A stretch of 17,223 nt of DNA from assembly GCA_017515125.1 (NCBI GenBank), contig JAFWHP010000025.1, positions 1 to 17,223 of the forward strand, read 5' to 3'. The notes under the pieces were generated by a model. That model made no database searches and was not told the origin of the DNA. It worked only from the letters and a program-made list of their open reading frames with translations. Of the stretch, positions 13,930 to 15,421 are shown piece after piece. A program made the translations under genes and the position numbers. The DNA comes from Candidatus Saccharimonadota bacterium (GTDB lineage: Bacteria > Patescibacteriota > Saccharimonadia > Saccharimonadales > Saccharimonadaceae). Every line of letters begins with the position of its first letter. The stretch's first letter is position 1.

Positions 13930-14613
13930 ATGAAAAATACTGTAAAAAATACAACATTCGTTAGTCTTCTAGACCTTCTCGCGCCCCACTCCTGTAGGGG
14001 TTGCGACCGAATCGGCACTATTTTATGCAACCGTTGTAAAAAATACATTTTAAGCCAAAAATGTCATATTTGCCCAATATGTAAAACTCCGACCATAAAC
14101 AATGCTTGCAAAAACTGCACAGATTTACCCACCGCCTATATAATAGGAGAACGTTCTGGACTCTTAGGCGACCGTGTCCACGACTATAAATACAATTCTA
14201 TTCGCGCTCTCGCCCATCCCCTTGCCGAAATGCTAGCAAGTACCCTTCCAGTCCTCAAAAACGCCGTTTTAGTTCCCCTCCCTACCGCCACTCATCATAT
14301 ACGCGCTCGCGGTTTCGATCACACTCTTCTCCTCGCCAAATCTCTTTCAAAAATAACTGGCTACGAAACCCGACCCCTTCTAGTACGTGCTAAAAACACC
14401 GTTCAAGTCGGCACCAACCTAGAAACCCGCAAGCTTCAGGCAACCAACGCTTACACGGTGGCTGCGACGAATCTCGATTCGCGTCCGACTTATGTACTCA
14501 TTGATGACGTCTGGACTACTGGTGCCTCAATGCTCTCTGCCGTCAAAAAGCTCCGGCAAGCCGGAGCCAAAAGCATCATCATAGCGCTATTATCAATCAG
14601 CAAAATTGACTAA
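13930..14613 (+). CDS. comF: ComF-family phosphoribosyltransferase-like protein
   Basis: Homologues are needed for uptake of transforming DNA, acting in the cytoplasm with the ComFA helicase and DprA. 227 residues. The N-terminal zinc-ribbon region has Cys 22, 25, 33, 36, 45, 48, 51, 60 and 63, enough for two metal sites. The characteristic RARGFDHTLLLAKSL segment is at 125-139. The PRPP-binding loop VLIDDVWTTGASM is at 189-201. Length is normal for the family. No strong Shine-Dalgarno is present; a weak AAGAG precedes the ATG. It is divergent from hsp20 and overlaps the convergent pilin-like gene by 3 bases at their tails (14610-14613). Natural competence would fit an organism that salvages nucleotides and DNA, but no other competence gene is in view. 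Confidence 0.92.
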   Translation: MKNTVKNTTFVSLLDLLAPHSCRGCDRIGTILCNRCKKYILSQKCHICPICKTPTINNACKNCTDLPTAYIIGERSGLLGDRVHDYKYNSIRALAHPLAEMLASTLPVLKNAVLVPLPTATHHIRARGFDHTLLLAKSLSKITGYETRPLLVRAKNTVQVGTNLETRKLQATNAYTVAATNLDSRPTYVLIDDVWTTGASMLSAVKKLRQAGAKSIIIALLSISKID

Positions 14614-15038
14614 GACTGACCTTGCTGCTGTTGCGCACTCTGCTCCTGCACCTTCGCAGGGTTGCTTGAACTTGGCAAGGAAGTAATAACGAAGTTCACA
14701 ATCGCATACGAGAAAAAGCAAATTACCAAACCGATAATTGCATAAAGCACTGTATTCTTAGCATCCGTAACTTTCTTCGAATCGCCTCCGGAAACCACAT
14801 ATCGGATACCACCGATAATCAACATAATTACCGCAATCACCCCCACGATATACAATATGGTATTAGTAACCTGCTTAAATACACCGGTATCGCCAAACAA
14901 ATCCGCCGGGCAATTCTCGCATCTCGCCGCCGCCGCCCCCTCGCTCAAAGTCAAAGCGGAAGCAGAAGGCGCCGCCAACAACCCAACACCGATAAATAAC
15001 ATTAAAACAGATAAAACTAACTTTAAATACTTATTCAT
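14610..15038 (-). CDS. Fifth VirB2-like T4SS pilin, with signal peptide
   Basis: 142 residues from ATG 15038. Signal peptide about 1-28 (ends APSASA), a short region with Cys 40 and Cys 43, then the two-helix pilin domain (about 55-121) with loop GGIRYVVSGGDSKKVTDAKN and second helix VLYAIIGLVI ending SYAIVNF. A Ser/Gln-rich tail closes the protein. The ATG at 15056 is not used here because it lies upstream of the -10 box; TGGTATAAT (15045-15053) puts the transcript start on the A of ATG 15038. There is no Shine-Dalgarno. It is separated from the main pilin cluster by hsp20 and comF, and runs convergently into comF. Confidence 0.85.
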   Translation of the reverse strand: MNKYLKLVLSVLMLFIGVGLLAAPSASALTLSEGAAAARCENCPADLFGDTGVFKQVTNTILYIVGVIAVIMLIIGGIRYVVSGGDSKKVTDAKNTVLYAIIGLVICFFSYAIVNFVITSLPSSSNPAKVQEQSAQQQQGQS

Positions 15039-15044
15039 AACTAT

Positions 15045-15073
15045 ATTATACCACACTTCTAAAAAATAAGCAA
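15045..15073 (-). promoter_or_regulatory. Promoter of the fifth pilin gene (leaderless)
   Basis: On the minus strand TTGCTT (15068-15073), 17 bases, extended -10 TGGTATAAT (TATAAT at 15045-15050). Plus 7 bases lands on the A of ATG 15038. Confidence 0.65.
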
Positions 15074-15118
15074 TACAAGAAATGTTGTATACTGCAACTT
15101 TAGGCGTAAGTAGTATCC

Positions 15119-15225
15119 TCCAGATTTAAAATCGCCAAGATTGGTGCTTTTCTTCTTGCGCCGCGCGTCTTCATCGACGAGCAAGCAAGAAAAAACGCCG
15201 TAATTACGGCTTTCAATTCGAATCC
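15119..15225. repeat. Structured repeat, copy 1 (diverged)
   Basis: Tandem partner of the element at 15224-15331. It shares the AGATTGGT block, a 7-bp stem TTCTTGC(15153-15159)/GCAAGAA(15185-15191) with a 25-base loop, a C-A mismatch and a 3-bp A-T extension, and a GCCG..CGGC hairpin followed by AATTCGAAT. Its terminal inverted repeats are decayed compared with copy 2. Confidence 0.7.
15190..15210 (-). terminator. Terminator-like hairpin in repeat copy 1
   Basis: GCCGTAATTACGGC (15197-15210) is a perfect palindrome; on the minus strand it is followed by G and six T (15190-15195). Confidence 0.55.
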
Positions 15226-15331
15226 ATTCGAGATTAAAAGCCGGCAGATTGGTATTTTCTTCATGCGAAGTGCTATTATACATAGAGCGAGCATGAAAAA
15301 ATGCCGAGATGCCGGCTTTTAACTCGAATGG
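15224..15331. repeat. Structured repeat, copy 2, with terminal inverted repeats reaching the tRNA CCA
   Basis: Terminal inverted repeats at 15224-15245 and 15311-15331 match over 21 bases with a single extra A at 15233. Inside is a stem TTCATGC(15260-15266)/GCATGAA(15291-15297) with a 24-base loop. The right end CGAATGG includes the complement of the encoded CCA of tRNA-Ser (15329-15331). The shape resembles a miniature inverted-repeat or REP-type element. Confidence 0.75.
15295..15320 (-). terminator. Terminator of tRNA-Ser inside repeat copy 2
   Basis: On the minus strand AAAAGCCG, a 6-base loop, CGGC and A then six T. The stem is at 15303-15306/15313-15316 and the T-tract at 15296-15301. 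It starts about 10 bases after the tRNA 3' end. Confidence 0.6.
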
Positions 15332-15421
15332 CGGAGGGTGGGAGATTCGAACTCCCGCTCCAGATCACTCCAGACTAACGATTTAGCAAACCGTCCCCTT
15401 CAGCCACTTGGGTAACCCTCC
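15329..15421 (-). tRNA. tRNA-Ser (anticodon GCU)
   Basis: 93 bases including an encoded CCA. Acceptor GGAGGGT pairs with ACCCTCC, discriminator G. The anticodon stem-loop has loop TTGCTAA, anticodon GCT, reading AGC and AGU. A long variable arm typical of class II tRNA-Ser is present. The T arm is GGGAG-TTCGAAT-CTCCC. Transcribed alone from a back-to-back promoter shared with the membrane-protein gene at 15470, and ended by the terminator in the adjoining repeat. Confidence 0.96.

Follow-up and report, generated by a model that had tools for sequence, protein, structure and literature searches.

The window (the whole stretch of 17,223 nucleotides that was analysed, from a Candidatus Saccharimonadota bacterium) contains a tRNA-Ser(GCT) gene with two repeat units behind it and a further reading frame beyond them (Table 1). 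Read in the direction of the tRNA, the encoded CCA runs directly into an intact palindrome, here called E1 copy 2, which is followed by a decayed tandem copy, copy 1, the pair occupying region 15118-15331. The initial annotation had described two head-to-tail units at this position, and these are real. It had also given copy 2 terminal inverted repeats of 21 bp with the outer end on the CCA of the tRNA, and this holds equally; the arms, CCATTCGAGATTAAAAGCCGGC and GCCGGCTTTTAACTCGAATGG, form 21 base pairs with one A bulged. As the right end of copy 2 is the encoded CCA of tRNA-Ser(GCT), the CCA belongs to the outer stem. The predicted RNA fold of copy 2 has an energy of -50 kcal/mol, and its first half carries GCCGGCATCTCGGCATTTTTT, a short GC hairpin followed by six U, for which the local fold is -6.7 kcal/mol. 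Copy 1 was missed at E 0.001 by the covariance model described below, the same one that scores copy 2. The paired difference between the inner stems, TTC[T]TGC/GCA[A]GAA in copy 1 against TTC[A]TGC/GCA[T]GAA in copy 2, is present as first described. Two details of that description have to be corrected. The supposed loop of 24-25 bases contains an additional stem with three variable pairs, at which 155, 153 and 154 of the 155 copies have Watson-Crick pairing, and the C-A mismatch, a reading of the plus strand, is a U-G wobble on the tRNA strand, kept in 145 of the 154 copies with letters there. Otherwise the two repeats were accurately described.

Table 1. Features behind tRNA-Ser(GCT) in the window, and loci of a second element, E2, in other sequences.
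Feature	Position	Strand	Remark
tRNA-Ser (GCT), encoded CCA, gene preceding E1 copy 2	15329..15421	-	
E1 copy 2, intact 108-bp palindrome adjoining tRNA-Ser	15224..15331	-	118 bits under the covariance model
Conserved 65-nt E1 core, ATCTCGGCATTTTTTC..NNGC..TCGCTC..hairpin..GAAGAAAATACCAATCT (tRNA orientation)	15246..15310	-	
Proximal intrinsic-terminator-like hairpin of copy 2, GCCG/CGGC (15303-15316) and U6 run (15296-15301)	15296..15316	-	from sequence
Distal outer arm of copy 2, ends TGG, complementary to the tRNA CCA	15224..15245	-	
E1 copy 1, decayed tandem copy	~15118..15222	-	76 bits under the covariance model
Copy 1 proximal hairpin GCCGTAATTACGGC and U6	15197-15210 (hairpin), 15190-15195 (U6)	-	
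Next same-strand reading frame, 148 aa, beyond E1	14610..15056	-	
E2	L032:1630-1706		
E2	L033:785-861		
E2	L034:1397-1480		
E2	L052:1147-1225		
E2	L076:3877-3952		
E2	L082:4972-5048		
E2	L092:2647-2729		

E1 is a family of hairpins of about 105 nt, represented in the window by an intact and a decayed member. Using BLAST on the genome of origin, which is 69% complete with 520,584 bases in 56 contigs, we obtained eight matches, among them the query and the window palindrome in reverse reading. Of 60 genomes searched, 12 had matches, the own one counted, and all 12 belong to one genus. A covariance model, R1, was built from 26 copies aligned with MAFFT; its seeds came from the own genome and relatives, the majority of the positive genomes contributing none. 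RNAalifold places these 26 copies in one long hairpin, in which 28 of the 35 pairs have changed on both sides. With R1, 67 of the 118 genomes searched in the genus were positive for E1, with 1-22 matches per positive genome; the own genome gave 12 matches at 11 distinct places, matches being counted per strand so that some places appear on both. At the level of the order, 36 of 294 genomes matched: 26 within the genus, seven in a single sister genus within the family, which is strongly positive, and three elsewhere with weak matches. The initial annotation had proposed searching related genomes for the 108-bp unit and building a covariance model; the search finds copies in more than half of the genomes searched in the genus, and the model a dispersed family of conserved structure.

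A 35-letter pattern was also scanned against named genomes and gave at least 109 loci. Among the 80 of these listed, 69 are titled Candidatus Saccharibacteria and 57 name the ruminant gut; the 11 records not from Saccharibacteria (Flavobacterium, Belliella and others) had no model match and were dropped. Viral contigs did not contain the exact pattern, a weak negative since it fits just 12 of the 26 seed copies. For the part of the window and the nine E1 loci scanned, Rfam returned no family at the gathering score except tRNA, and the matches below threshold (a plant miRNA, a snoRNA, a viral pseudoknot) were set aside as chance hairpin matches. We found no published account of such a family in Saccharibacteria in the open-licence literature. 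In one genome, G027, a subfamily is formed by two E1 copies (L294:3725-3834 and L295:14753-14862) that follow different tRNA-Ser genes and have the same replacement of the apical part, GATACCACGCC..GGCG..GTATC.

From 196 raw places in the loci scanned with R1 we kept 156 distinct copies, 40 duplicates being dropped by inner sequence and window copy 1 being added by hand. Same-strand tRNA 3' ends account for 87 of them and opposite-strand tRNAs for two; 35 lie at the ends of same-strand coding sequences, six at contig edges and 26 elsewhere, second tandem copies among these. A copy was put in the coding class if a same-strand reading frame of 45 codons or more ends there; the shorter of these may be chance frames. 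The tRNA copies are closely placed, 79 of the 87 beginning between -12 and +2 nt from the tRNA end, and sixteen tRNA isotypes carry E1. With 22 tRNA matches in the own genome, such tRNA-end windows make up far less than 1% of strand positions. The loci were picked by matches and by pattern, so these shares should not be taken as rates across whole genomes. Of the 11 places listed for the own genome, three are at tRNAs (C2, C4 and C54), a share below that of the pool. By sequence reading, the E1-bearing frames include S10, L27, L7/L12, L34, S7, L33, S1-like and KhpA-like proteins and a 67-aa protein ending LTLKKK. A total of 61 copies lie neither at tRNAs nor at contig edges. An opposite-strand frame ends at 17 of them, 10 of which also lie at a same-strand end; with frames of at least 80 codons the figures are 22 same-strand, nine opposite and two both. 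Strict co-orientation is therefore a property of the tRNA copies only. The initial annotation had proposed checking whether other copies end at tRNA CCA ends. There are 87 copies at same-strand tRNA 3' ends, but its picture of a family targeting tRNA 3' ends is incomplete, as 35 of the 156 copies sit at same-strand stop codons. Putative tmRNA 3' ends were read behind L105 and L116, although ARAGORN did not call them.

Within the 26 aligned copies, 91.6% of the 905 pair cells hold standard pairs, against 70.3% after shuffling, with none of 500 shuffles reaching the observed value, and at most 51.3% of cells pair when the arms are slid. The compensatory changes thus exceed both controls, as is asked of a structured RNA in a covariation test. 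The initial annotation had named a lack of copies in related genomes, or paired positions varying independently, as evidence against it; copies are present there, and the paired positions do not vary independently. Taken with the 12 matches in the own genome and the 67 positive genomes out of 118, pairing beyond the shuffled and slid controls means that the E1 matches are not due to chance. In the three variable apical pairs 13 different left-hand triplets occur, and of 146 readable copies 142 have an exact complement on the other side.

If selection acted on an RNA, G-U pairs would be expected to be commoner than A-C on the transcribed strand. Over all pairs there are 272 G-U and 136 A-C cells, and 127 and 136 without the fixed U-G pair; the counts become 77 and 131 when a second G-U-rich pair is also left out, 117 and 79 when two A-C-rich pairs are left out instead, and 67 and 74 without all four. 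The balance depends on the pairs left out, and G-U is not clearly favoured over A-C. In 87 nearest-neighbour comparisons, which are not independent events, we counted 193 double Watson-Crick changes against 102 changes on a single side (43 through G-U, 29 through A-C and 30 other), and a further 14 double changes were non-Watson-Crick. Individual orthologous pairs differ in this respect: between L063 and L062 there are six double changes and not a single-side one, between L062 and L106 five single-side changes and one double.

At a threshold of at least 8 of 10 nt, an outer arm matches its own partner in 70% of 151 copies and the arm of another copy in 2.9%. In five of 32 coding-sequence copies (L068, L081, L114, L071 and L022) the far arm mirrors at least eight bases of host codons, against a null of 0.25% with swapped arms. 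Mirroring is found in a minority of copies and is weak in those at tRNAs, with at least five bases in 5 of 77 (null 3%) and at least three in 16 of 77 (null 7%); overall, at least three host bases are mirrored in 27 of 109 copies (null 7-9%). According to PMC8794818, a template switch during replication can give rise in a single step to hairpin arms and to compensatory changes, which fits the E1 data. Template-switch copying is our preferred, though unproven, cause of the arm complementarity. It would, however, erase mismatches in the core, yet the invariant ones persist (U-G, C-A, and ATCT opposite AATCT), so selection must act on the core.

The paired changes can also be read as the initial annotation had read them, as selection on an RNA structure. 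E1 would then be a structured RNA that is released along with the tRNA or mRNA, as a small RNA or a processing signal, and the compensatory changes would reflect selection on the fold. The co-orientation of 87 copies with the tRNA against two opposed, the apical stem that is Watson-Crick in 153-155 of 155 copies, the conserved motifs TCGCTC and GCGCTTC, covariation well beyond the two controls, and the fixed U-G pair together with the excess of G-U over A-C (117 to 79) once the two A-C-rich pairs are omitted are all consistent with this. Against it, G-U and A-C are level, at 127 and 136, when the fixed U-G pair is the only one left out, there are more double than single changes, host codons are mirrored in five far arms, the E1 host genes are unrelated, Rfam has no match at threshold for the window part and nine loci, and one locus, L177, retains the terminator half alone. 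The structure is conserved and the paired changes are real, but given the 193 double against 102 single changes and the codon mirroring, RNA selection is not the sole reading. We regard a structured RNA as possible but rather unlikely.

For 83 tRNA copies the 26 nt preceding the T-run have a mean fold of -5.87 kcal/mol, with 6.4 T in the following 8 nt. Over all 151 copies the mean is -4.84 kcal/mol in the sense direction, compared with -2.45 kcal/mol in the antisense direction (140 copies) and -2.8 kcal/mol for shuffled sense sequence. The tRNA copies thus combine a hairpin and U-run at the 3' end of the gene with a fold stronger in sense than in antisense, as in an intrinsic terminator. A fixed G-U within the T-run leaves six U on the sense strand against four in the antisense consensus, as expected if termination in the direction of the gene is kept. 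The gene-proximal arm of the tRNA copies looks like an intrinsic terminator. Behind protein genes the proximal hairpin, at -2.59 kcal/mol, is no better than the shuffled value of -2.8, so that the terminator reading there rests on the GC outer stem, which is followed by TTTT(T).

Comparison of orthologous sites points to turnover. We compared 30 loci of the gene beside tRNA-Ser(GCT), 29 of which have that tRNA, and a full E1 is present in the window's alone. At L177 E1 is reduced to its proximal half with the terminator and at L180 to a short remnant; many of the others have small insertions of unrelated sequence. E1 is found behind tRNA-Ser(GCT) in genomes outside these 30 loci, at L012, L143, L156 and L258, and the site has thus been either kept or used repeatedly. 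Two of the 30 orthologues of the 67-aa gene carry E1 (L224 and L231, the latter missed by the script tag but plain by eye and listed by R1). One of the other 28 (L237) is a relict lacking the core, and the script identified an unrelated hairpin and T-run in 22 of the remaining 27. The five that it missed (L212, L217, L227, L229 and L236) have longer or broken stems by eye, not all of them clear, with E1-like pieces in L236. At this gene E1 fills the slot held by unrelated terminator-like hairpins in most E1-free orthologues.

The relict at L237, in the E1-negative genome G004, has the E1 outer arms and the ATCT loop without the core, and L101 is another such form. An ATCT loop occurs in none of 35 detected hairpins in a 152.6-kb sample of the E1-negative genome G001, in five of 57 in G027, all of them E1 or variants, and in two of 11 in G004 and G070, one being the relict; the hairpin finder was anchored at the T-run and detects short stems only, so that the totals are lower bounds. 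We interpret the core-less forms as deletions between the two ATCT repeats, although insertion into such a loop fits equally well.

A classical non-autonomous transposon (a MITE or REP/REPIN) that a hairpin-recognising transposase mobilises in trans would be palindromic and dispersed like E1, with its 1-22 model matches per positive genome (some maybe counted on both strands), and would leave tandem and truncated copies such as those that exist here. Against this, flanking direct repeats are not above chance among 148 copies (2 nt in four and 3 nt in three), giving no target-site duplication beyond that level, and the outer arms vary between copies and match within a copy. Two mobility domains were searched, Y1_Tnp and RVT_1. 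A RAYT partner (PF01797, Y1_Tnp) is lacking from the own genome, which is 69% complete, and occurs in five of the 118 genomes of the genus with no association, in three of 67 positive against two of 51 negative genomes. The suggestion that the family is REP-like thus fails in the RAYT sense, and we consider this type of transposon unlikely.

Many tRNAs in these genomes are followed by a second copy of their own 3' end. Counting at least 13 of the last 15 nt of the tRNA matching within 300 nt downstream, we found such copies at 56 of the 229 tRNAs in the fetched loci, with 0 of 229 in the upstream control, and at four of 14 tRNAs in a sample of E1-free genomes. They are often tandem units ending in CCA (for example at L186, L192, L205 and L285). 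A second structured element of about 120 nt, E2 (CGAGAACC..GGTTCG..GTAGGA..CGAG..GACGCCC; Table 1), is flanked by two copies of the 3' end of the tRNA itself, one inverted and one direct, has an apparent covarying pseudoknot by eye, and gave no Rfam match at threshold. At L156:5084-5260, tRNA-Ser(GCT) and E1 are followed by a copy of the tRNA 3' end and then by an E1 reduced to its terminator half, a series of duplication and decay that looks like a tandem duplication.

E1 might then be the cargo of a tRNA-targeting integrase, travelling along as units that end in a tRNA 3'-end copy insert at tRNA genes. The excess of downstream copies over the upstream control and the order at L156 fit this proposal, and a flanking tRNA 3'-end copy scoring at least 16 of 22 is found at 17 of 64 tRNA-adjacent E1 copies, L012 adding one by eye. 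We nevertheless think it quite improbable, as 47 of the 64 have no clear tRNA copy, the E1-negative sample has such copies as well, and E1 is found at stop codons too. Retro-insertion from reverse-transcribed transcript 3' ends is very improbable: E1 sites are RNA 3' ends, and a reverse-transcriptase domain occurs in 48 of 67 E1-positive against 22 of 51 E1-negative genomes (Fisher p 0.0024, kinship ignored), but 19 of the 67 positive genomes have no such domain, including G016 and G060 with seven and eight matches at 98 and 99% completeness, and many of the domains may belong to DGR enzymes. These domains are present in 70 of the 118 genomes of the genus, which are mostly 0.5-0.9 Mb, many in frames of about 350-450 aa.

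E1 shares features with several known systems. Like intrinsic (Rho-independent) terminators, it has a GC hairpin and U-run directly behind a gene and replaces other terminator-like hairpins at an orthologous site; unlike them, it has a conserved 65-nt core common to copies behind unrelated genes, and its ATCT loop is absent from the 35 short-stem hairpins of the G001 sample. REP, BIME and REPIN sequences, which go with the RAYT transposase, are dispersed extragenic imperfect palindromes, as is E1, but E1 has no RAYT association, is longer, has far fewer copies and is co-oriented with the preceding tRNA. ERIC, BOX, RUP, Correia and bcr-type MITE-like repeats are palindromes of about 100-150 bp that have retained their structure despite divergence. 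E1 resembles them in this, and differs in showing no flanking target duplication, in its locus-specific arms and a position at gene 3' ends. In Escherichia coli, the tyrT repeats and rtT RNA lie behind a tRNA and carry copies of its 3' end; many tRNAs here have downstream 3'-end copies, whereas E1 itself contains none and occurs at 16 tRNA isotypes and at protein genes. Hairpin evolution by template switching, as treated in PMC8794818, predicts multi-base compensatory changes and reverse-complement copies, which fits E1, although the case made there concerns RNA genes such as rRNA and E1 is a dispersed bacterial repeat of more than 150 copies.

Judged by sequence comparison, E1 is a family whose 65-nt core recurs at tRNA CCA ends and many stop codons, co-oriented with the tRNA, and whose outer arms differ between loci and match each other within a copy. 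We think it fairly probable that E1 is a dispersed palindrome, mobile now or in the past, which provides the predicted transcription terminator of the preceding gene. In the tRNA copies RNA polymerase would stop at the proximal GCC/GGC hairpin and U6, and after read-through the complete hairpin, outer stem and TTTT included, would act as a second stop; copies behind protein genes would depend on the outer stem for termination. A template switch inside the hairpin during replication may copy one arm into the other and so be the main cause of their complementarity, taking in host codons in a few copies, with selection maintaining the terminator and the unpaired core motifs. More tentatively, E1 may be a mobile terminator in a stronger sense, its core being joined to tRNA and protein genes at their 3' ends and its far arm rewritten from the host flank by fold-back copying, giving a long palindrome matched to its locus that persists without selection on pairing. 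If this is correct, more than 150 natural copies would make the joint change of arms testable, the alternatives being selection by way of weak intermediates and copying from arm to arm in one step. Very small genomes could then have their tRNA terminators replaced by a spreading repeat, and E1 would serve as a warning that strong covariation by itself is no proof of a functional RNA.
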